DNA of 64,000 nt from Marinobacter sp. LA51 (lineage in GTDB: Bacteria; Pseudomonadota; Gammaproteobacteria; Pseudomonadales; Oleiphilaceae). The stretch lies in contig NZ_AP028070.1 in assembly GCF_030297175.1 (NCBI RefSeq), forward strand, positions 124,001 through 188,000, given 5' to 3'. Of the stretch, positions 25,999-42,129 are shown piece after piece; position 1 is the first letter of the stretch; every line of letters begins with the position of its first letter. The position numbers and the translations under genes are program-made. A model generated the notes under the pieces. The model saw only the letters and a list, made by a program, of their open reading frames with translations, made no database searches and was not told the DNA's origin.

Positions 25999-26952
25999 AT
26001 GGCGCGTTTCTTCGCAATCATCCTTTTTCTGGCGGGGTCGCTGGCCCACGCCGAAACCCAGCCACCAGCTCTGGTAGACGCCAACTGGCTGAATCAGAAT
26101 TTGGGAAAGGACCAGCTGGTGGTGCTGGATGTTCGTTCCGGTATCGACAATGGCGGTGATCGCAGCAGCTTTCAGCAGGCCCACATTCCCGGTTCCCGTT
26201 ACAGCAGCTACACCGGCGATGGCTGGCGGGAGAGTCGTGACGGTGTGCAGGGGGTGTTGCCCCCGACCGCAAGCCTGGAGCGCCTGATTGGCAGCCTGGG
26301 TATCGGTAATGACAACACCGTGGTGATCGTGCCGGCCGGCACTGGAGCGACCGATTTCGGCAGTGCGGCCCGGGTCTACTGGACCTTCCGGGTGTTGGGT
26401 CATGATCAGGTCACCATTCTCAATGGCGGTTTCGCCGGCTGGCGTGCGGCCGGCTACGAGGTGGTCAGCGGAGCGGGCGCAGACTTTGAACTGGCGAACT
26501 TTGAGGGCGCCCTGCAGGCGGACCTGATTGCCACCCTGGAGGAAGTCGAAGAGGCACGGGAGTCCCAGGCCCAGCTGGTGGACGCGCGGCCATCGGATTA
26601 TTTCCGGGGCGAGACCAAGTCGCCGGCAGCCAAGGCTCCGGGCACCATTCCCGGCGCCAAGAATCTGCCCCATCACGAGTTTGTTGGTCAGCAGGATGAG
26701 GTCTGGTACCTGAATGCCGATCGCATCACCGCCCAGGTGAATGCCGCCGAGCTGGACCCGAATGCCCGCACAATTTCCTTCTGCAACACCGGACACTGGG
26801 CCGCCACCGATTGGTTCGTGCTGAGTGAACTGGCCGGCTTCCAGGAAGTGGCCTTGTACGACGGCTCCATGTCGGAGTGGTCCCAGGACAGCAGTCGGCC
26901 GATTCAGGTAGCCCGTAAGGGCTTGGGTAAGATTCTGAACCTGTTTGACTGA
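25999..26952 (+). CDS. Periplasmic thiosulfate-type sulfurtransferase (two rhodanese domains)
   Basis: The 317-residue protein has a signal peptide (MARFFAIILFLAGSLAHA). It has two rhodanese domains: the first (residues about 27-145) lacks a catalytic Cys, and the second has the active loop CNTGHWA near residue 262. The CNTGHW loop suggests a rhodanese rather than mercaptopyruvate-specific enzyme. It is secreted, whereas most double-domain sulfurtransferases are cytoplasmic. A YeeE/YedE thiosulfate transporter follows 11 bases downstream, so the two likely move or process sulfane sulfur at the membrane. Confidence 0.87.
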   Translation: MARFFAIILFLAGSLAHAETQPPALVDANWLNQNLGKDQLVVLDVRSGIDNGGDRSSFQQAHIPGSRYSSYTGDGWRESRDGVQGVLPPTASLERLIGSLGIGNDNTVVIVPAGTGATDFGSAARVYWTFRVLGHDQVTILNGGFAGWRAAGYEVVSGAGADFELANFEGALQADLIATLEEVEEARESQAQLVDARPSDYFRGETKSPAAKAPGTIPGAKNLPHHEFVGQQDEVWYLNADRITAQVNAAELDPNARTISFCNTGHWAATDWFVLSELAGFQEVALYDGSMSEWSQDSSRPIQVARKGLGKILNLFD

Positions 26953-26963
26953 GAGCCCGACTC

Positions 26964-28178
26964 ATGACCGAATCCGCTGTTGCCCAGCCACCCTCGTATA
27001 GCGGCCGCTGGCAGATAGACCGTTTTGTCGTCAGCACTGCCCTGGCCGGTGTCGCCCTGTTGGGCGGGTTGATCTGGCTGGAAACTGCCCCATTCATGGT
27101 GGCGCTGTTTGTGATTGGCACCGTGCTGGGCATTGCCCTGTATCACGGTGCCTTCGGTTTTACCGCCGGCTGGCGCAACCTGGTGGTGCACCGCAAGGGC
27201 GCCGGTATGCGGGCACAGTTGCTGTTGTTTGGTTTGAGCTCCTTGATCATGGTGCCGCTGCTGCACAGTGGCCAGGACGGGTTGATTGGCGCGGTGGCGC
27301 CGGTGGGCACCTCCCTGGTGGTGGGCTCATTTCTATTTGGTCTGGGCATGCAGCTGGGCGGCGGCTGTGGTTCCGGCACGCTGTTTACTGTCGGCGCCGG
27401 TAATATCCGCATGGTGATCACCCTGGTGTTTTTCATCCTCGGCACGGTGATGGGCTCCATCCACCTGCCCTGGTGGCTGGACCAGCCCGGCGTGGATCCC
27501 ATATCCCTGGTCACGCCCCTCGGCGTCAGCGGTGCGATTCTGGCCCAGTGGCTGGGCCTGGGGTTGATTGCGCTTTGGGTGAATCGCATCGAGCGTAAGG
27601 CCCATGGTTCGGTGGAGCGTGCAGCGTTGCTCTGGCAAGCGCCCAGTCACGGGCCAGTTCGAACACTGCTGACCGGGCGCTGGCCGTTTGCCTGGGCGAT
27701 CCTGGTGCTGGCCCTGGGCAACGCCCTGACTCTGGCCATTGGCGGTTCGCCCTGGAGTATTACCTTTGCCTTTAACGTCTGGGGGGCCAAGGCATTGGAA
27801 GCCGTGGGTGTGAACATGGGCCAGTTCGAGTTCTGGCAGTGGGAGTACCCGGCCATGGCGCTGAAGGATTCGGTGTTGACCAACATCCCTTCGGTGATGA
27901 ACTTTGGCTTGCTGCTGGGTGCCATGCTGGCGGCCGGCTTGGCCAACCGCTTCAATGAGGCCAGTCGCAATCGCCCGGAACCCCGGCAGTTCTATGCGGC
28001 CGTGGTGGGCGGTTTGTTGCTGGGTTATGGCGCCCGCCTGGGCTTCGGCTGCAACATTGGCGCTCTGTTCTCCGGTATCGCCTCGGCCAGCGTGCACGCC
28101 TGGATCTGGTTCGCCTGTGCCTTTGTTGGCTCGTTGGTAGGCATCCGCTTGCGGCCCTGGTTCCGCCTGCCAAACTGA
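26964..28178 (+). CDS. YeeE/YedE (TsuA-like) sulfur transporter
   Basis: The 404-residue multi-spanning protein contains two inverted repeats with conserved cysteines, in LGMQLGGGCGSGTLFTVGAG (residues about 127-146) and GYGARLGFGCNIGALFSG near residue 355. TsuA of this family imports thiosulfate by relaying it between such cysteines. The partner rhodanese upstream and a small Cys-containing membrane protein downstream support a thiosulfate or sulfane-sulfur role. The usual companion TusA-like protein is not in the cluster. Confidence 0.88.
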   Translation: MTESAVAQPPSYSGRWQIDRFVVSTALAGVALLGGLIWLETAPFMVALFVIGTVLGIALYHGAFGFTAGWRNLVVHRKGAGMRAQLLLFGLSSLIMVPLLHSGQDGLIGAVAPVGTSLVVGSFLFGLGMQLGGGCGSGTLFTVGAGNIRMVITLVFFILGTVMGSIHLPWWLDQPGVDPISLVTPLGVSGAILAQWLGLGLIALWVNRIERKAHGSVERAALLWQAPSHGPVRTLLTGRWPFAWAILVLALGNALTLAIGGSPWSITFAFNVWGAKALEAVGVNMGQFEFWQWEYPAMALKDSVLTNIPSVMNFGLLLGAMLAAGLANRFNEASRNRPEPRQFYAAVVGGLLLGYGARLGFGCNIGALFSGIASASVHAWIWFACAFVGSLVGIRLRPWFRLPN

Positions 28179-33433: not shown

Positions 33434-33480
33434 TTTGCCTGCATTCTGTAATGGTTGAGTAAATCATGTGTCTCACTGAT

Positions 33481-33549: not shown

Positions 33550-34440
33550 ATGACTAAAATCCACCCACTACGACAAGCGATTCGCGCCAGTCAGCAACAC
33601 CGGCACAGCAACTGGTGGTCGGCGTTGCTGGTGACCGCCTTGCTGACCGGTGGCGGCGGTGTTGCAGCAGCCTGTAACCCGTGTTCGCCATGCAAGGGTA
33701 AATGCGGTGCGTCGCAGCAGTGTAAGGCAGGGTGCAACCCCTGCGCCGGAAAGAATCCCTGCGCGGCCAAGAATCCCTGCGCTAGCAAAAACCCATGCGC
33801 GGTGAAGAATCCGTGTGCCACTAAGGGCTGCAACCCCTGTGCGGTCAAGGGCTGTAACCCTTGTGCCACGAAAGGCTGTAATCCCTGTGCCGCGGCTGGC
33901 AAGTGCGCCGCCAAGCCAAATCCCTGCGCCGCCAAACGGGTAACGCGACCGGCCGGCTATCAGCCGTATGAGGGCAACCCTTGCGCCCTGGTGGCCATGG
34001 GTAAGAAGCTGTTCAACGACACCTCGCTGAGCAGCAACGGCCTGGCCTGCTCTACTTGCCACAACAACGGCGCCGGCTATAACGCCACCTTTGCCGAAGC
34101 CTATCCGCACTCGGTGGCCATGGCCCGGGATGTCTTTGGCATGGGAACCGTGCACCTCGACGAAATGGTCCAGATCTGCATGGTTCGCCCCATGGCCACG
34201 GAACCTTTGCCCTGGGACGGCGAGCAACTGGCGGCGTTAACGGCGTATATGGCCAAGGTACAGACTGAACTGGCGGCCAATCCCTGCGCCCTGAAAGGCG
34301 GTAAATGCGGTGCCTGCAACCCGTGTGCGGGCAAGAACCCTTGCGCCACGAAGAACCCGTGTGCCACCAAAAACCCGTGCGCGGCCAAGAATCCATGCGC
34401 ATCGGCACAGCTGAAAGCCACGGCAGCATCGGCGGCTTGA
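33550..34440 (+). CDS. Cysteine-rich Asn-Pro-Cys repeat protein with a c-type cytochrome core
   Basis: The 296-residue exported protein has a signal peptide (SALLVTALLTGGGGVAAA). A first Cys-rich block covers residues 42-128, with units such as CNPCAVKG and KNPCAAK. A class I cytochrome c core covers about 140-242, and a second block about 243-283. About 31 cysteines and 17 NPC triplets are present. The single heme motif is C167-S-T-C170-H171; a candidate axial Met is in the RPMAT segment near 215. Ala-Ala-Ala-Cys42 could make it a lipoprotein. Many Cys-Pro units suggest copper or other metal binding. Function unknown. Confidence 0.85.
   Translation: MTKIHPLRQAIRASQQHRHSNWWSALLVTALLTGGGGVAAACNPCSPCKGKCGASQQCKAGCNPCAGKNPCAAKNPCASKNPCAVKNPCATKGCNPCAVKGCNPCATKGCNPCAAAGKCAAKPNPCAAKRVTRPAGYQPYEGNPCALVAMGKKLFNDTSLSSNGLACSTCHNNGAGYNATFAEAYPHSVAMARDVFGMGTVHLDEMVQICMVRPMATEPLPWDGEQLAALTAYMAKVQTELAANPCALKGGKCGACNPCAGKNPCATKNPCATKNPCAAKNPCASAQLKATAASAA
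33673..34398 (+). repeat. In-frame DNA repeats encoding K-N-P-C-A units
   Basis: Short coding repeats of 12-18 bases fill 33673-33933 and 34276-34398, interrupted by the unrepeated cytochrome core. The codons vary between copies (for example AATCCCTGC and AACCCGTGT), so the repeat is kept at the protein level rather than by recent duplication. It is not a CRISPR array. Confidence 0.8.
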
Positions 34441-34527: not shown

Positions 34528-35289
34528 ATGACGCAGAAAACACTGATTAAGCTTCAGTCACCGGAGCTCACCAGCATCAGTGACCAGCAGATTCGAACCA
34601 GCCTGGCGGCGATCAGCGAGATTCGGGAATGCTACCGGGTGCTGGAAAAAGGCGGCCTGAACATCGTCGGAGAGGTGTTGCGGGGCCAGGGGCCGTTCTA
34701 CGAACTGGATCACTACCCCAAGGACGATGTTTTCGATGCCGCTACGGCATCTCAGTACTACTACCATGCCCACCGCAGCGACCATGACGAGCATGGCCAT
34801 TTCCATCTGTTTTTGCGGAATTCGGCGTTGCCCGGCGAGGCGGAGCCTGTGCTGGGCCCTGTGGGCAAGGATCGGGTCGCGCACCTGGTGGCGATCGCCA
34901 TGGATGCCTGGGGGTTTCCTACCGAGTTGTTTGCGGTCAATCGCTGGGTTACCGATGAAAGCTGGCTCGGGGCTGCATCGGTAATTGCGTCGTTGGATCG
35001 GTTCAATCTTGACCACGCTTACCCGAGTTGGCCAGTCAATCGCTGGCTCACGGCGATGGTGCGTTGCTACCGACCCCAGGTCGAAGCGTTGCTGCGCCAC
35101 CGTGACCAGGTGCTGGCCGAGGACAGCGGGCGATCACTGGCAGACGTTCTGGAAGATCGGCGGCTGGAAGTGACCGGCACCATTCCGGTGGATCTGGATA
35201 GCTGGGCGGCGGCGCTCACCGGGGAGCAACAGCGACGGGCCCTGTCCTGGTTGCCATCGCCTGAACCGGCATTGGCGAACAAGGCTTAA
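34528..35289 (+). CDS. DUF6969-like conserved protein of unknown function
   Basis: The 253-residue cytoplasmic protein has no signal peptide or membrane helix. Visible features are YYYHAHRSDHDEHGHFHLFL (His-rich, possible metal site, residues about 77-96) and WPVNRWLTAMVRCYRPQVE near residue 168. I recall this pattern as the DUF6969 family, but with limited certainty. It follows the Cys-rich cytochrome by 87 bases in the same direction. It overlaps the convergent anti-sigma gene by 4 bases. Confidence 0.7.
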   Translation: MTQKTLIKLQSPELTSISDQQIRTSLAAISEIRECYRVLEKGGLNIVGEVLRGQGPFYELDHYPKDDVFDAATASQYYYHAHRSDHDEHGHFHLFLRNSALPGEAEPVLGPVGKDRVAHLVAIAMDAWGFPTELFAVNRWVTDESWLGAASVIASLDRFNLDHAYPSWPVNRWLTAMVRCYRPQVEALLRHRDQVLAEDSGRSLADVLEDRRLEVTGTIPVDLDSWAAALTGEQQRRALSWLPSPEPALANKA

Positions 35290-35558
35290 CGGTCCGAATC
35301 TGGGTCTGCGTCAGGAGCCTCGGGGCGGTGGCTCAAGGCCTCAGTGACGCAATGGTTGATGCGATCAATCACTGACTGTTCAACGCGCGCGGACGAATGC
35401 CCCCGCAGCAGTTCCGTGCTCGCCCGTAGATTGCCGATGAATGAGCGGCAGTGGCGGCACATCATCAGGTGCATTTGCACGGACAGGCGTCTGCCGGTGC
35501 TCAATTCGCCGTCTATGTAGTCGCTGGCAATCCCCGCCAGCTCGCGGCACATTAGCAT
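35286..35558 (-). CDS. Zinc-finger anti-sigma factor (zf-HC2 type)
   Basis: The 90-residue protein has the zinc-binding anti-sigma motif HLMMCRHC at residues 30-37 (H30, C34, C37) with Cys4 completing a His-Cys3 site. No membrane helix follows, so it is a soluble ZAS-type factor. Such proteins release their sigma factor on oxidation or metal stress. It overlaps the sigma gene by 7 bases, a translational coupling typical for sigma/anti-sigma pairs. The short acidic C-terminal tail has no known domain. Confidence 0.88.
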   Translation of the reverse strand: MLMCRELAGIASDYIDGELSTGRRLSVQMHLMMCRHCRSFIGNLRASTELLRGHSSARVEQSVIDRINHCVTEALSHRPEAPDADPDSDR

Positions 35559-36169
35559 TCGCCGGTCTCCTGAAACGTTTCCACCATCAGAAAGATTTTC
35601 TGACGCGCACGATGAAGCATAACCCGCAGGTTAGATGCACTGACATCGAGAATGTTACAGACGTCATCGGATTTGTGCTGGTGCGCTTCGTACAGGATCA
35701 AAGCCGAACGCTGATTTTCCGGCAGGTGGCCAAGGTGCTTGTCGAGGCAATCGCTCAGGGCGCCGTTCTCCAGCAGAGCGTCGGCGGATTCGTCAAACCG
35801 CAACTTTGGTGGCGTGGCCCAGCGGCCCGAGGCTTTGAACCGGCTGTCCAGCTCTGGTTCCAGGCGTTCTGAAAAGTCGGTAGTGATCTCGCGGTGGCTG
35901 GTCCGCAGCTGGTTTTTGCAGCGATTGGCCACAATCCGGTGGAGCCAGGTTTTCAGGCCCGAGCGGCCCTCGAAACGTCGAATGGCGTCGATCACCGTGA
36001 CCCAGCAGTCCTGCACGATTTCCTCGGCGTTGGCGGGATCAACATAGTAGCGTGCAACCGCGAGCATGCCGGCGGTATAGGTCGAGACGGCCTCGGTAAA
36101 GGCGGCTTGTTCGCCACGCTTCAGGGCTTCAACCAGTCTGCTTTCATCAAGATCCGGGTGCGCGTTCAC
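35552..36169 (-). CDS. ECF RNA polymerase sigma factor
   Basis: The 205-residue sigma factor has region 2 (DPANAEEIVQDCWVTVIDAI, then FEGRSGLKTWLHRIVANRC) and region 4 (LPENQRSALILYEAHQHKSD, then ILDVSASNLRVMLHRARQK). These are the two ECF domains, with an ordinary linker between them. It is paired with the downstream zinc-finger anti-sigma gene. The genes on both sides run away from it. The motif shared by their upstream regions suggests that it controls them. Confidence 0.93.
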   Translation of the reverse strand: MNAHPDLDESRLVEALKRGEQAAFTEAVSTYTAGMLAVARYYVDPANAEEIVQDCWVTVIDAIRRFEGRSGLKTWLHRIVANRCKNQLRTSHREITTDFSERLEPELDSRFKASGRWATPPKLRFDESADALLENGALSDCLDKHLGHLPENQRSALILYEAHQHKSDDVCNILDVSASNLRVMLHRARQKIFLMVETFQETGEC

Positions 36170-36417: not shown

Positions 36418-36451
36418 ATGACGTAACCAATGTTTAGCAAAGGATGATGTG

Positions 36452-38641
36452 ATGAACGCGAAAAAGTGGCTGACGATTCTGGCCATCGTGGTTGTAGTGG
36501 CGGCCTTCTGGAGCAGCGGAGCCCAGGAATACCTGACCCTCGATGCCCTGAAAGCCCACCAGCAGAGCCTGGATGCCTGGATTGTCGACCATGCCTGGAT
36601 GGCGGTTGGCGGCTACATGGTAATTTACATTGCGGTGACGGCGCTGTCGTTGCCGGGCGCGACCATCATGACCCTCGCTGGTGGTGCGTTCTTTGGCAAT
36701 GTCTATGGCCTGGCGGCGGTGTCTGTCGCCTCCACCATCGGCGCTTCCATCGCCTTCCTGGTGGCTCGCTTCCTGGCCCGCGACACCCTGCGGGAAAAAT
36801 ACGCCAGCACGGTGGCGCGAATGGATCGGGGCATCGAAAAAGACGGCGCTTTCTACCTGGCCACCCTGCGGCTGGTGCCGGCCTTCCCGTTTTTCCTGAT
36901 CAACATCGCCATGGGCCTGACCGCCATGAAACTGCGCACTTACGCGCTGGTCAGTTGGGCCGCCATGCTGCCGGGTACCTTCGTGTATGTGAACGCCGGC
37001 ACTCAACTGGCGCAGATCGAGTCCACCGGTGACATCGTTTCGGCCGACCTGCTGCTGTCCTTTGCCTTGCTGGGCCTGTTTCCGCTGATTGCGAAATTCG
37101 TGGTCGGCTTTATCCGCCGGCGCCGGGTGTATGCCGGCTGGCAGAAACCGGCGTCGTTTGATTACAACCTGCTGGTAATCGGTGGTGGCTCCGCCGGCCT
37201 GGTGTCGGCCTATATTGCGGCCGCGGTGAAGGCCAAGGTGGCTTTGATTGAGCAGCACAAGATGGGCGGTGACTGCCTGAACACCGGCTGTGTACCGTCC
37301 AAGGCGCTGATTCGCAGTGCCAAGGCGGCGGACACCCTGCGCCATGCCAACCGATATGGCCTTGAGGCAGTGCCGGTCAAAGGCTCGTTCAAGGCCATTA
37401 TGGATCGGGTGCAAAACGTCATTGCCAAGGTCGAGCCCCACGATTCGCCGGAGCGTTACCGGAAACTTGGCGTCGACTGCATCTCGGGCCACGCCAGTTT
37501 CGTATCGCCCTGGGAGTTGGAAGTTACCCACAGCGATGGCCATACCGAGCGCCTGACGGCTCGCAGTATTGTTGTTGCCACCGGCGGCAAGCCGGCGATG
37601 CCGCCGATTCCCGGTCTGGCCGAGATGGAGCCGCTGAATTCCGACAACCTCTGGTCCCTGGAAACCCAGCCGGAACGGTTGCTGGTACTGGGTGGAGGGC
37701 CGATCGGTTCGGAGCTGGCCCATGCCTTTGCCCGCCTCGGTAGCCAGGTGATTCAGGTGGAGATGGCGGACCGGTTACTGATGAAAGAGGACAGTGACGT
37801 TTCCGAGTTGATCAAGAGCCAGTTTGAGCAAGATGGCATCGACGTGCGCCTGGGGCATGCGGCCAAGGAGTTCGCCATCGAAGACGGTGAGAAGGTGGTG
37901 TACTGCGAGCATCAGGGCGAACGGGTGCGTATAGCCTTTGACCAGGTACTGGTCGCTGTTGGTCGTGCGGCCAATACCCGGGATCTGGGTCTGGACAAGA
38001 TCGGGGTCGAAACCCTGCCCAACGGCACGGTGCCGGTGGAAGAAGATATGAGCATGCGCTACCCGAATGTGTTTGCCTGTGGCGATGTGGCTGGCCCGTA
38101 TCAGTTCACTCACGCCGCTGCGCATCAGGCCTGGTATGCGGCGGTGAACGGACTGTTTGGCCAGTTCAAGCGGTTCCAGGTGGATTATCGGGTTATGCCC
38201 TGGGTGACGTTCACCTCGCCGGAGGTGGCCCGGGTTGGGCTGAGTGAAACGGAAGCCAAGGAGCAGGGCGTGGCCTACGAGGTGACTCGGTACGGTCTGG
38301 ATGATCTCGATCGCGCCATTGCCGAAAGTGCCGATCATGGCTTTATCAAGGTGCTGACGCAGCCGGGCAAGGACAAGATCCTGGGCGCGGTGGTCGTCGG
38401 GACTCACGCCGGTGAAATTCTGGCGGAATTTACCCTGGCCATGAAGCATGGTCTGGGGCTGAACAAGATTCTGGGCACCATTCATCCCTATCCCACCTGG
38501 AACGAGTCGGCCAAGTTTGCCGCCGGGGAATGGAAACGGGCCCACGCGCCTCAGGGCGTGTTGAATCTGCTGGAAAAACTGCACGGCTGGCGCCGTGGCA
38601 AAGACACCAAAGAATCTCGGAGCGTATATGCCCCTGACTGA
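36452..38641 (+). CDS. DedA/VTT domain fused to a pyridine nucleotide-disulfide oxidoreductase
   Basis: The 729-residue protein joins two families. Residues about 1-215 are a VTT (DedA/TVP38) membrane module with several helices, including ALSLPGATIMTLAGGAFFGN. Residues about 235-710 are a flavoprotein of the mercuric reductase/lipoamide dehydrogenase group: FAD motif VIGGGSAGLVSA, redox pair in GGDCLNTGCVPSK near residues 274-279, NAD motif LVLGGGPIGSELA, and HPYPTWNE at the dimer end. It probably reduces a disulfide or small thiol substrate at the membrane. It overlaps the radical SAM gene by 14 bases. A possible ECF promoter lies upstream. Confidence 0.9.
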   Translation: MNAKKWLTILAIVVVVAAFWSSGAQEYLTLDALKAHQQSLDAWIVDHAWMAVGGYMVIYIAVTALSLPGATIMTLAGGAFFGNVYGLAAVSVASTIGASIAFLVARFLARDTLREKYASTVARMDRGIEKDGAFYLATLRLVPAFPFFLINIAMGLTAMKLRTYALVSWAAMLPGTFVYVNAGTQLAQIESTGDIVSADLLLSFALLGLFPLIAKFVVGFIRRRRVYAGWQKPASFDYNLLVIGGGSAGLVSAYIAAAVKAKVALIEQHKMGGDCLNTGCVPSKALIRSAKAADTLRHANRYGLEAVPVKGSFKAIMDRVQNVIAKVEPHDSPERYRKLGVDCISGHASFVSPWELEVTHSDGHTERLTARSIVVATGGKPAMPPIPGLAEMEPLNSDNLWSLETQPERLLVLGGGPIGSELAHAFARLGSQVIQVEMADRLLMKEDSDVSELIKSQFEQDGIDVRLGHAAKEFAIEDGEKVVYCEHQGERVRIAFDQVLVAVGRAANTRDLGLDKIGVETLPNGTVPVEEDMSMRYPNVFACGDVAGPYQFTHAAAHQAWYAAVNGLFGQFKRFQVDYRVMPWVTFTSPEVARVGLSETEAKEQGVAYEVTRYGLDDLDRAIAESADHGFIKVLTQPGKDKILGAVVVGTHAGEILAEFTLAMKHGLGLNKILGTIHPYPTWNESAKFAAGEWKRAHAPQGVLNLLEKLHGWRRGKDTKESRSVYAPD

Positions 38642-39596
38642 AACACGGCCGGCTCGGAAGCGCATTCCGGCGGTTGAAGTGCTTGAACCCCGAGCGCGGG
38701 ACAGCTGGACCCACACCCGCAACGGCGATCCGCGTGGCTACATTGACGCCGATCGCCTGAAGGAGCTGTGGATCCACACCGGCACCGCCTGCAATCTGGC
38801 GTGTCCGTTCTGCCTCGAGGGCTCACACCCGGGCGATGGCCGTATTCCGGGCATGAAGCTTAGCGATGTGGAGCCGTTTATCCACGAAGCCCTGGAGATG
38901 GGTGTGGAGCAGTTTTCGTTCACCGGCGGCGAGCCGTTCGTGATCCGGGATTTCGTCAATATTCTCGATTACGCCAGCCAGCACCGGCCCTGTTTCGTGC
39001 TGACCAACGCCACCGAGCCATTGCTCAAGCGCAAGCACCAGGTGCTGCCGCTGCTGGATAATCCCTACCCGATCCATTTTCGGGTCAGTCTCGATTTCCC
39101 CAGCCGGGCACGCCACGACAAGGATCGGGGTGATGGCAGTTTTGATCAGGCGCTGGAGGGAATCCATTGGCTGCTGGAACAGGGCTTCAAGGTTTCCATC
39201 GCTCGTCAGACCGATCCGGATGAGATTCCGGCGGAAGTGGAGGCGGAGTTCCGCGCCATCTTCCGGGAGTGGAACATTGCCGAAAACCTGGCCTTTACCG
39301 CGTTTCCGGATCTCGGAACGCCAGGATCCGAGGACGGCAGTCCGGAAATTACCGAGACCTGCATGGAGAAGTTCCCGACCAAAGACAGCCGGGGCCACTT
39401 CATGTGCACCTATACCCGGATGCTGGTGAAGAAGGGCGATCAGGTTCGGGTATTTGCCTGCACGCTGGTGGATGACGATCCGCAGTACGATTTGGGCGGT
39501 ACGCTGGCCGAGAGTATGGATGAGCGGGTTATGTTGCGGCATCACCGGTGCTTTTCCTGTTACCGGTTTGGGGCGAGTTGTTCGGCGCCTGGCTGA
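38628..39596 (+). CDS. Radical SAM protein with extra C-terminal cysteines
   Basis: The 322-residue enzyme has the radical SAM cluster motif CNLACPFC (C55, C59, C62) and the SAM-binding FTGGEPF near residue 98. Further cysteines near the C-terminus (MCTYTR, VFACTL, CFSCYRFGASC) look like SPASM-type ligands for an auxiliary cluster. The product is unknown; sequence resemblance to peptide- or cofactor-modifying enzymes is loose. The start at 38628 overlaps the end of the flavoprotein gene by 14 bases and follows CGGAG, so the pair is translationally coupled. Confidence 0.85.
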   Translation: MPLTETRPARKRIPAVEVLEPRARDSWTHTRNGDPRGYIDADRLKELWIHTGTACNLACPFCLEGSHPGDGRIPGMKLSDVEPFIHEALEMGVEQFSFTGGEPFVIRDFVNILDYASQHRPCFVLTNATEPLLKRKHQVLPLLDNPYPIHFRVSLDFPSRARHDKDRGDGSFDQALEGIHWLLEQGFKVSIARQTDPDEIPAEVEAEFRAIFREWNIAENLAFTAFPDLGTPGSEDGSPEITETCMEKFPTKDSRGHFMCTYTRMLVKKGDQVRVFACTLVDDDPQYDLGGTLAESMDERVMLRHHRCFSCYRFGASCSAPG

Positions 39597-39765: not shown

Positions 39766-41169
39766 ATGACAACTTTTGAAGGCGCCCTGTTCTGGGGCTT
39801 TTTGGTGGTGTACGGCGTTGTGATGTACGTGCTGTCGCCCAAGAGCAAGAACGCCAATTCGTTTTACAAGGGCGCCGATGATCAGGGCAATCCGGTTGGT
39901 CAGTGGTCACTGACCGCCAGTATCTTCATCAGTTGGATTTTCGCCAAGTCGGTGACCAATGCCGCTAACCTGGGTGCTGCCTACGGGGTGACCGGCGGCC
40001 TGGCTTACGCCAGTTACTGGCTGTCGATTCCGGTGGCCGGCTACATCATCTACCTGATCCGGACCCAGACCGGGGCCCGTTCGCTTCAGGACTTCCTGAC
40101 TTCGCGCTTTGGGCGGCTGGCGTCACTGGCGTTCGCCGCGGCGATTCTGATCCGGTTGTACAACGAGGTCTGGAGTAACACCGCCGTCGTGGGCGGTTAC
40201 TTTGGCCTGCCGGGGCAATGGGAGTACTACGTCTCGGCCATGCTGTTCACTATCTTCACCCTGGCCTACAGCCTGAAAGGCGGGCTGCGGTCGTCGATCT
40301 TCACCGATGTGATTCAGGCGGTGGTGTTCGTGTTCTTTGTCGGGGCCGTGCTGTTCCTGATCATTCCTGCCAACGACACCAGTGCCCTGCTTAATAACGG
40401 CGAGTTCCGGCTGGATGCCGGTTTTGACCTGTTGCTGGTCGCGCTGTTGCAGATGTTCAGCTACCCGTTCCACGATCCGGTCCTGACCGACCGGGGTTTC
40501 GTGAACAAGGAAAAGACGATGCTGAAGAGTTTTGTGGTGGCGGGTCTGCTCGGCTTTGTTGCGGTCTTTATCTTTAGTCTGGTGGGCGTGCACGCCCGTC
40601 TGAACGGCATTGACGCCATGGGCAATGCCCCGGCCGCAGTGGGTCAGTCGCTGGGTCTGGCGGCGCTGTTCTTCATGAGCGTGGTGATGATGACCTCAGC
40701 GGGCTCGACGCTGGATTCCACCTTTACCTCGTTGGCCAAATCGTTGGCGGTGGATCTGCCGCGGCTGGCGCGTCGGGCCAAGGACCGGCTGCCCAGTATC
40801 CGGGTTGGCGCGGTGGTGATGGTAATATTTGCCTTTGCCGGTAACCTGCCGATGTTCGCCGGCACCGATATCCTCAAGGCCACCACCATCTCCGGCACCA
40901 TGGTGATGGGGCTGGGTCCGGTGTTCCTGTTCTACGGCTTTACCCAGTGGTCGCCGTGGAGTTTCCACCTCAGTTTCTGGACCGGGCTGACGCTTGGCGT
41001 GTTGCTGGCGGTGGGGCTGATTCCGGCCAGCTGGGCCATTGGCGAGGGCAAGTACGCCATGTTGCTGGGTGTGAACGCCTACGGCTTCCTGATCTGCTCT
41101 GGTGGCTTCTTCCTGCCCCTGTTGCTGCGTCGCCTGGCCGGTCGCTCGCTCGCAGCTGGCGAGGCCTGA
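39766..41169 (+). CDS. Sodium:solute symporter (SSS family)
   Basis: The 467-residue protein has about 12-13 membrane helices. A predicted Na+-site helix shows SASIFISWIFAKS-like residues near position 50 (LTASIFISWIFAKSVTNAAN), and further on is a stretch with SAGSTLDSTFTSLAKSLAVD. The fold matches the SSS family, which imports sugars, amino acids, vitamins or urea with Na+. Substrate cannot be assigned. The next gene, 9 bases away, is a metallophosphoesterase, and the preceding radical SAM gene is separated only by the palindromic repeat. Confidence 0.87.
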   Translation: MTTFEGALFWGFLVVYGVVMYVLSPKSKNANSFYKGADDQGNPVGQWSLTASIFISWIFAKSVTNAANLGAAYGVTGGLAYASYWLSIPVAGYIIYLIRTQTGARSLQDFLTSRFGRLASLAFAAAILIRLYNEVWSNTAVVGGYFGLPGQWEYYVSAMLFTIFTLAYSLKGGLRSSIFTDVIQAVVFVFFVGAVLFLIIPANDTSALLNNGEFRLDAGFDLLLVALLQMFSYPFHDPVLTDRGFVNKEKTMLKSFVVAGLLGFVAVFIFSLVGVHARLNGIDAMGNAPAAVGQSLGLAALFFMSVVMMTSAGSTLDSTFTSLAKSLAVDLPRLARRAKDRLPSIRVGAVVMVIFAFAGNLPMFAGTDILKATTISGTMVMGLGPVFLFYGFTQWSPWSFHLSFWTGLTLGVLLAVGLIPASWAIGEGKYAMLLGVNAYGFLICSGGFFLPLLLRRLAGRSLAAGEA

Positions 41170-41178
41170 GGCCGCGTT

Positions 41179-42129
41179 ATGACCGAAGGTCGAAGTTGTC
41201 CACTGGCATACCGGTACCGGGCCGACCAATTGTGTGCCGAGCCAATACCCGTCTCGGAAGACGTGATCTACGTTATTGGCGGTCTGTACGGCAACCCCCA
41301 AGCCCTGACGGAGATCGAACGCATGGCCCGGGCCGAGGAGCAGGCCGGGCGCCGGGTGCGGCTGGTATTCAACGGCGATTTCAACTGGTTCAACGCTAGT
41401 GACGAGCTGTTTCAGGACATTAACCGTCGGGTGCTCCGGCACACTGTCAGCTTGGGTAATGTCGAGTTCGAGCTGGCCAATCCCAGCGACGAGGCCGGGT
41501 GTGGTTGTGCCTACCCGGACTTTGTTGACCAGGGCGTGGTAGAGCGGTCGAACCGCATCATGACCCGACTTCAGGGTATAGCCGCCCACCACCCGGAACT
41601 TCAGGATCAGTTGGCGCGCCAGCCCCGCTATCTGTGCCTGATGTTTGGAGGCCTAAAGATTCTGGTTGTGCATGGTGACCCGGACTCCCTGGCTGGTTGG
41701 GGTCTGGCCCATGAGGCCTTCAGTGCCGGCAACGATTCTGCCGTGCAGGCCTGGTTTCAGGCCACGGATGCCGATGTCATTGCCTCCACCCATACCTGCC
41801 TGCCGGTGCTGTGGTCGGGACGGGTTGGGGAGCGGACGCGGACGGTGGTCAATAACGGGTCGGCCGGCATGGGTAATCTGTACGCCGATGCCCGCGGCCT
41901 GATTACCCGCATCAGCACCGAAGCCCCTGTAGGTGGCGCTGTTGTCGGCCATGATCAGGGCAGCGTCCGGATTTCCCTGGTGCCCGTGGCCTTCGATCTC
42001 GAGGCCTGGCTGCCGCAGTTTGATGGCTTATGGCCGGCCGGTTCAGATGCGGCTCTCTCCTATCGATCCCGCATCGTTCAGGGCGCGTCCCTGGCACCGG
42101 AGCAGGCGGTTTTTGGTTCGGTCTTCTAA
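41179..42129 (+). CDS. Metallophosphoesterase-like protein
   Basis: The 316-residue protein has degenerate calcineurin-like phosphoesterase motifs: GGLYGNPQAL (usually GDxHG), FNGDFNWF, VHGDPDSL and STHTCLPV. The first acidic metal ligand seems replaced, so metal content or catalysis may differ from the family norm. It has no signal peptide and is probably cytoplasmic. Placed directly after a sodium:solute symporter, it may act on the imported compound. The function is otherwise unknown. Confidence 0.75.
   Translation: MTEGRSCPLAYRYRADQLCAEPIPVSEDVIYVIGGLYGNPQALTEIERMARAEEQAGRRVRLVFNGDFNWFNASDELFQDINRRVLRHTVSLGNVEFELANPSDEAGCGCAYPDFVDQGVVERSNRIMTRLQGIAAHHPELQDQLARQPRYLCLMFGGLKILVVHGDPDSLAGWGLAHEAFSAGNDSAVQAWFQATDADVIASTHTCLPVLWSGRVGERTRTVVNNGSAGMGNLYADARGLITRISTEAPVGGAVVGHDQGSVRISLVPVAFDLEAWLPQFDGLWPAGSDAALSYRSRIVQGASLAPEQAVFGSVF

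Follow-up and report, generated by a model that had tools for sequence, protein, structure and literature searches.

A cysteine-armed mono-heme cytochrome and DUF6969 form a conserved two-gene module in Marinobacter and other bacteria

Organization of the locus

We analysed a stretch of 64,000 nucleotides (nt) of the genome of Marinobacter sp. LA51 (contig NZ_AP028070.1, positions 124,001 to 188,000), hereafter called the window, in whose own numbering all coordinates are given. At 33550..34440 of the forward strand, an open reading frame (ORF) that is open and single-copy in this 3.77-Mb, one-contig genome codes for a protein of 296 residues. The ORF, profile and homologue searches and a composition count define this protein as a Cys-armed mono-heme cytochrome. 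The next gene, at 34528..35289 on the same strand with 87 nt between the ORFs, codes for a DUF6969 protein (PF22308; Pfam E 2.4e-80), the candidate partner or maturase of the Cys arms. As detailed below, Cys arms and DUF6969 represent a conserved two-gene module.

The cytochrome is composed of a signal-like N-terminus, an arm of Asn-Pro-Cys (NPC) repeats, a domain with a lone CSTCH motif and a second NPC arm. The residue count yields exactly 31 Cys and 17 NPC triplets, the figures that the initial annotation had given as approximate. The N-terminal arm (residues 41-128) contains 19 Cys and the C-terminal arm (residues 244-296) eight. The other four are C145, which is part of an NPC, C167 and C170 of the CSTCH motif, and C210. 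All features are on the forward strand. By reading, the signal region (residues 1-41, 33550..33672) comprises a hydrophobic stretch and then VAAA ahead of the first Cys. It is followed by the N-terminal arm (residues 42-128, 33673..33933), with 12 Lys/Arg and zero acidic residues when counted from residue 41, the heme domain (residues 129-242, 33934..34275) and the repeats of the C-terminal arm (residues 244-283, 34279..34398), where the residue count places all eight Cys of that arm. The export proposed in the initial annotation is plausible from the sequence and would use the Sec route. The lipidation that it also suggested is doubtful, because AAA precedes the first Cys, which is unusual for a lipobox, and because relatives from Pseudomonas and those with acidic arms (see below) have no Cys at that place.

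Cys arms are an exchangeable module

A homologue search with the window protein returned 1241 matches, of which the best 120 were examined; those beyond may include arm-only matches. The possibility of an orphan protein was thus ruled out. The search for the same architecture, suggested as a check in the initial annotation, showed that the layout recurs among the 120 examined matches and in loci named Marinobacter, Pseudomonas, Halomonas-group, Accumulibacter, Rokubacteria and Magnetococcales. Relatives up to 96% identical carry the name Marinobacter. The build is therefore common, and what holds of the earlier statement that no characterised protein has it is that no same-layout protein with a tested function was found among these homologues.

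The same core also occurs with acidic EAEGEAEG repeats on its N-terminal side and usually only three Cys in total; its hosts are then a second Marinobacter group, Halomonas and a few others. We refer to the two kinds as Cys cores and acid cores. Because one core is found with either type of arm, the arms are an exchangeable or separable module. Arm length varies, and the C-terminal arm is absent in several relatives. The idea that the arms follow the cytochrome was discarded on the grounds of the acid cores and of the presence of arms on other domains. This natural swap of Cys and acidic arms on one core offers a ready comparison. The acid-core loci are L014-L024, L064-L069, L072-L083 and L087-L089, mostly from Marinobacter, and L092-L110, mostly from Halomonas. 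In Marinobacter their gene run includes a TTL/ATP-grasp protein, a DinB-family protein and sometimes TANGO2-like and GGDEF-EAL-like genes.

Similar arms are carried by P460 domains, with PF16694 above its cut-off in L205, L210 and L213. P460-like proteins with a C-terminal CxxCH were recognized by eye in L112, L171/L224, L214, L221, L229, L232, L235 and L238; the L221 protein has no Pfam or NCBIfam match. NPC arms are also found on PTP-NADK/BLH_phosphatase domains in L029 and L236, and by eye in L220. In L029, a YeeE/YedE pair precedes the NPC-PTP protein, which is followed by DUF6969. Lastly, arms occur alone on many small, exported-looking proteins, including those of L127-L129, L145-L147, L189-L191, L211 and L215-L218.

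DUF6969 tracks the Cys arms, not the cytochrome

DUF6969 is the next same-direction gene in 39 of the 49 parsed Cys-arm loci and in none of the 52 acid-arm loci; these counts include some species twice and leave out the unparsed loci L039, L055, L093 and L100. The association also holds at the level of genomes. In 61 Marinobacter genomes, of 97 genomes searched, DUF6969 was found in 15/15 with a Cys-arm protein and in 0/46 of the others (p 1.4e-14, shared ancestry being ignored in this and the following co-occurrence tests). Thirteen of the 15 hold a Cys core, in some cases without its C-terminal arm. Both the Cys core and DUF6969 are decayed, side by side, in G005 (L027). G038 has no core, and there an NPC-armed PTP-like protein directly precedes DUF6969. 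The core of G016 (L008, L273) has no C-terminal arm and adjoins a DUF6969 match covering only positions 2-87 of the profile, while a second, fuller DUF6969 lies beside another NPC-like protein. Of the 46 DUF6969-negative genomes, 12 harbour an acid-arm core and two (G004, G026) a degraded copy.

We extended the analysis to 385 genomes of another class, that of G111. DUF6969 is present in 89 of them and an NPCxxxNPC pattern, searched at the DNA level, in 54: both in 46, the pattern only in eight, DUF6969 only in 43 and neither in 288 (Fisher p 1.9e-26). Requiring at least two pattern matches changed these numbers to 39, 3, 50 and 293. One of the three pattern-only genomes, G1041 (L219), has a stop codon in each listed repeat unit, and the stretch is probably non-coding.

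At the level of loci, a strict Cys-repeat ORF lies beside DUF6969 in 45/78 cases versus 11/184 control tiles (p 2.6e-19). The control is conservative, since genuine NPC proteins are encoded in L070, L085, L091 and L205, the loci from which five of the 11 positive tiles come. A loose scoring of Cys repeats was too noisy (53/78 DUF6969 loci, 67/184 control tiles), and its motif-filtered version flagged 52/77. Reading by eye identified Cys repeats within about 1.5 kb in 50/78 loci; in this manual count, flags at L111, L139, L169 and L170 were judged spurious, and L124 and L126 were added, the latter being weak. Twenty loci without a convincing match were read over longer stretches, and nine were not extended (L119, L140, L151, L161, L162, L165, L170, L178, L182). 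The longer stretches added L113, L114, L116 and L184, bringing the total to 54/78. More distant DUF6969 genes adjoin other Cys repeats, namely SPCGL, CAAC, GAAKCGAK and CCAAEG.

DUF6969 is His-rich and has no evident signal peptide; it is probably a metalloprotein. Structure searches matched it to no solved fold. In the DUF6969 alignment, H72, H74, G82, H83, H85, N130 and W132 are invariant, which is partly circular as the rows were chosen by motif, whereas H111 was not selected for. The L124 protein, found by hidden Markov model, has NRF in place of NRW. In the open PubMed Central literature, we found no paper on DUF6969, on NPCAAK or on cysteine-rich repeat P460 cytochromes. The papers listed first on cysteine-rich cytochromes c and DUF3179, on MNIO enzymes and bufferins, on SoxA/TsdA, on periplasmic cysteine-rich or Asn-Pro-Cys proteins and on sulfane sulfur with rhodaneses and YeeE did not deal with the window protein either. 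No characterized member of the Cys-repeat/DUF6969 pair was thus found in that literature or among solved structures. With the association described here, DUF6969, for which these searches gave no solved relative, gains a testable role.

Selection on the arms

Among the 17 NPC units, third codon positions differ in 241 of 408 comparisons. Codon identity at positions 1 and 2 is forced by the choice of NPC and is therefore not evidence. A codon comparison with nine orthologues gave ratios of non-synonymous to synonymous substitution rates (dN/dS) of 0.028-0.066 for the arms in the four pairs that allowed arm dS to be calculated, this dS being saturated in the remaining five, and of 0.019-0.115 for the core across all nine. 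The aligned arm Cys are all retained in eight of the nine pairs (27/27 in L031 and 26/26 in L002, for instance), the exception being L039 with 19/21; arm parts absent from a relative are left out of these counts. As repeat alignments may slip by whole units, the arm dN/dS and Cys-retention values are approximate. The low arm dN/dS and the conservation of arm Cys across orthologues support purifying selection on the arms, in agreement with the earlier notion that selection maintains the protein motif while codons differ.

These data bear on an alternative explanation of the arms, according to which they serve mainly as a spacer, an anchor or a crowding element, their Cys content being incidental. 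The acidic arms of the same core, the variable arm length and the loss of the C-terminal arm in several relatives would fit with it. Nevertheless, purifying selection acts on the Cys positions, and Cys arms on several kinds of proteins are accompanied by one specific gene, which makes this explanation very unlikely.

A SoxA/TsdA-type core with a candidate thiolate ligand

Pfam PF21342 matches residues 151-237 of the window protein (31.7 bits, cut-off 27), and an acid-arm relative scores 36.0 bits. The AlphaFold2 model of 33922-34293 (predicted local distance difference test 92.7, predicted template modelling score 0.87) has SoxA/TsdA as its best fold matches. The core belongs to the SoxA/TsdA domain family as a mono-heme variant. 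The single-heme core with CSTCH described in the initial annotation stands: there is one CxxCH in the 296 residues, and the heme-attachment motif (C167, C170, H171; 34048..34062) is present in 120/120 listed homologues, as is His187 of a YPH motif (34108..34110). The thiosulfate-oxidizing SoxA/TsdA cytochromes have two hemes, while the window protein has one heme and fused polythiol arms. The SoxA equivalog family TIGR04484 gives 29.9 bits for a cut-off of 110, and no SoxX-like gene was detected by Pfam among the six neighbour genes scanned.

Cys210 (DEMVQIC, 34177..34179) is invariant in the same 120 homologues, and it aligns with the Cys of 'MINACRTSRM' in SoxA, presumably the heme ligand there. 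Sequence conservation and this alignment thus place a Cys at the axial-ligand position. Cys210 persists in acid-arm forms with only three Cys, and its retention where all arm Cys are lost fits with a structural or ligand role. In the core alignment, the invariance of M82 and C86 is partly circular, the rows having been chosen by motif, and we relied on the 120-homologue set instead. The heme is probably His/Cys-ligated, with the Cys210 thiolate as the candidate axial ligand, so that the Met ligand envisaged earlier is unlikely. Counted by offset from Cys210, Met206 (C-4) and Pro214 (C+4) would occupy the positions of Arg119 and Ser127 of TsdA. The domain type and the invariance of the candidate Cys ligand favour a role in sulfur chemistry over that of an ordinary Met-ligated cytochrome.

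Some homologues are called 'cytochrome c peroxidase' in databases, an identity that we rejected in view of the single heme and a partial profile match. PF03150 matches residues 147-179 around the heme motif, i.e. only positions 3-36 of a 149-position profile, and TIGR03791 gives 18 bits for a cut-off of 443.85. The window protein shares the database name and the PF03150 match with cytochrome c peroxidases and MauG, but it has one CxxCH in place of the two heme domains of the di-heme enzymes, and its best folds are SoxA/TsdA. Exported Cys-repeat proteins, which are frequent and partly hidden under such database names, gain a common frame.

Sulfur-related genes and other neighbours

In 20 of the 78 DUF6969 loci, DUF6969 is flanked by genes for a YeeE/YedE protein and/or an SseA-like rhodanese (Pfam Sulf_transp, Rhodanese). 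Both are present in 17, and only one of them in L132, L137 and L158; L127-L129, which are among these loci, also harbour an ArsR-type regulator. A small rhodanese-like gene was seen by eye in three DUF6969 loci. Among 100 neighbour ORFs from 20 NPC/DUF6969 loci that were scanned with Pfam, Sulf_transp (4) and Rhodanese (3) were the commonest of 82 families. PMC11582611 describes YeeE/YedE proteins as importers of thiosulfate or related sulfur. FGE-sulfatase-like genes lie beside DUF6969 in 21/78 loci and possibly code for a second Cys-modifying partner. Sulfur and sulfatase neighbours are unevenly spread over the DUF6969 sub-groups.

The FGE-sulfatase-like genes are those of L113, L114, L116, L132, L161, L164-L166, L168, L170, L172, L174, L176, L179, L181-L183 and L185-L188. 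In the window itself, a rhodanese gene (25999-26952) and then a YeeE/YedE-type transporter gene (26964-28178) are located about 5.4 kb upstream of the operon; these two families directly flank DUF6969 in L130, L148-L151, L153-L157 and L160.

The initial annotation had suggested a copper or soft-metal sponge, or a disulfide store, coupled to a redox centre. The data support the exported polythiol, its link to a redox centre and its maintenance by selection. Nothing points to copper in particular, as no copper family, be it a transporter, a chaperone or an oxidase, is among the 25 most frequent families of the neighbour scan. In a soft-metal version, the arms and DUF6969 would form a bufferin-like system, with the arms as periplasmic ligands of Cu(I) or of a different thiophilic metal, which the heme would oxidize, reduce or report on. 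The 27 arm thiols in Lys-containing repeats, with no acidic residue in the N-terminal arm, and the FGE-sulfatase-like genes would fit with this, as would the one MNIO gene (PF05114) among the 100 neighbour ORFs. The layout also resembles that of bufferins. According to PMC12452194, these are Cys proteins that are exported by the Sec route and undergo modification by an iron enzyme; Buf1 clusters include sigma-factor genes, and a few bufferins are fused to cytochrome c and FGE-sulfatase domains. However, DUF6969 is not an MNIO by Pfam, the cytochrome has no DUF2282 match, a metal role of the SoxA-like core is not evident, and the spacing of NPC (6) differs from that of CxxC or CxC metal motifs. 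A metal cargo is rather unlikely, yet a serious competitor of the sulfur reading proposed below.

We also considered arsenic or metalloid handling, in which the thiols would bind arsenite. Operons of the Pseudomonas group are flanked by TIGR04282/TIGR04283-like glycosyltransferase genes and by a low-molecular-weight phosphatase/arsC-like gene, and glycosyltransferase relatives were found by BLAST clustering in Litchfieldella L058 and L060. Nevertheless, the NCBIfam matches are under their cut-offs, the arrangement is confined to a few genera and the neighbour Pfam scan showed nothing alike beyond two Glycos_transf_2 matches, making this hypothesis highly improbable. The loci with arsenosugar-family-like glycosyltransferases near the Cys-core operon are L051, L053, L058 and L060 (L051 below cut-off, the others by clustering).

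Regulation

A motif of the extracytoplasmic function (ECF) type, TGTAAY-N15-GTGTCT, is present at 33447..33473 (+), with 76 nt between its end and the start codon of the cytochrome gene. Downstream of DUF6969, the reverse strand codes for a zf-HC2 anti-sigma factor of 90 residues (35286..35558; PF13490 37.5 bits, cut-off 22.2; NF052368 59.3 bits, cut-off 50) and for an ECF sigma factor (35552..36169; Pfam Sigma70_r2 and r4_2), the likely regulator of the operon. Relatives of both also adjoin the Cys cores of the Pseudomonas-group loci L051 and L053. The motif precedes the core in 32/32 Marinobacter Cys-core loci (some species twice), 2/38 loci of the acid-core group (L026, L107) and 0/14 other Cys-core loci (L050-L063), and it forms a conserved block in the alignment of 13 upstream regions. 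The LA51 genome has a single exact match; with at most one mismatch there are 12, versus 15 for the reversed control. We infer that the adjacent ECF/zf-HC2 pair likely uses the motif because the ECF gene adjoins the operon.

Among 96 motif sites in related loci, 31 precede Cys cores and 13 have no ORF within 400 nt. The other genes found behind the motif code for VTT/flavin adenine dinucleotide (FAD)-disulfide oxidoreductases (13), GGDEF-EAL proteins (12, by eye), DUF3179 proteins (8), TTL/ATP-grasp proteins ahead of acid cores (6), radical SAM proteins (3) and glutaredoxin-like proteins (3, Glutaredoxin by Pfam). Such a set would suit a thiol-oxidant sink or disulfide store, with arms scavenging reactive chlorine, thiocyanate or electrophiles and being re-reduced by the heme or a periplasmic glutaredoxin: the motif precedes the disulfide oxidoreductase and glutaredoxin-like genes, and the neighbouring anti-sigma factor belongs to the zinc-finger type, some members of which sense thiol oxidation. 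Nevertheless, this would leave the dedicated partner gene and the sulfur transporters unexplained, and the exact motif does not recur in the LA51 genome. We consider this role distinctly unlikely.

The window also harbours, at 36449-38641, a gene for a VTT domain fused to a MerA/dihydrolipoyl-dehydrogenase-like FAD oxidoreductase, followed by radical SAM (38595-39596) and sodium/solute symporter (39766-41169) genes, and many Marinobacter loci have these same three genes downstream of the Cys-core operon. The product of 41179-42129 has no Pfam or NCBIfam match, and a look-alike was seen by eye beside DUF6969 in L131.

Proposed function

The arms on unrelated proteins together with the partner gene point to undescribed sulfur or soft-metal handling outside the cell membrane. 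We tentatively favour, as a possibility short of probable, an exported polythiol with a Cys-ligated heme that handles sulfane sulfur and whose arms are handled in the cytosol by DUF6969. In this proposal, 27 arm thiols flank a mono-heme SoxA/TsdA-type domain with a probable His/Cys heme. While the protein is still in the cytosol, DUF6969 would modify, load or protect the Cys of the arms. Once exported to the periplasm, the arms would take up sulfane sulfur and store it as persulfide or thiosulfonate, and one-electron steps at the Cys-ligated heme would serve to add or remove it. One chain may thus combine the roles of SoxA, the enzyme, and SoxY, the carrier, which are otherwise two proteins. 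In Marinobacter, the ECF-type motif is probably used by the ECF/zf-HC2 pair under thiol-reactive stress. The data show the build of the protein, selection on its arms, the fold type of the core, the conservation of Cys210 and of the promoter motif, the linkage of arms and DUF6969 and the swapping of arms; what we infer is that Cys210 ligates the heme as thiolate, that DUF6969 acts on the arms, that sulfur is the cargo, how electrons flow and which signal induces the operon.

A broader proposal is a widespread, hitherto undescribed proteobacterial system in which DUF6969 would be a His-rich metalloenzyme with a new fold, modifying or loading the Cys of Sec-exported arms on SoxA-like, P460 or sulfurtransferase-like domains or of arms on their own, thereby giving a periplasmic polypersulfide store wired to heme. 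In this breadth, we regard it as unlikely.

Comparison with known systems

The analogy with SoxYZ would lie in a periplasmic thiol that serves as carrier of sulfane sulfur next to a heme of the SoxA type. SoxY uses a single C-terminal Cys for this purpose, whereas the window protein has 27 thiols, in repeats, on the heme-bearing chain itself. Metallothionein-3 is a precedent for a Cys-rich protein that holds sulfane sulfur, its thiols accommodating metal or sulfur according to PMC12618007, but it is a mouse protein and has no heme. No metallothionein Pfam family matched the window protein at E 0.01.

Like the bufferin/MNIO (DUF692) systems, the module consists of an exported Cys protein with an adjoining His-rich candidate metalloprotein and a nearby ECF sigma factor, and in this sense it would work like them. 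In contrast with bufferins, the arms are tandem NPC repeats and the partner is DUF6969. Neither DUF2282 nor MNIO (PF05114) was detected with Pfam and NCBIfam in the window protein or in the six neighbours scanned. If the arms carry metal, the module would represent a second bufferin-like system, devoid of MNIO enzymes; if they carry sulfane sulfur, a heme enzyme would here be fused to its own polyvalent sulfur carrier.
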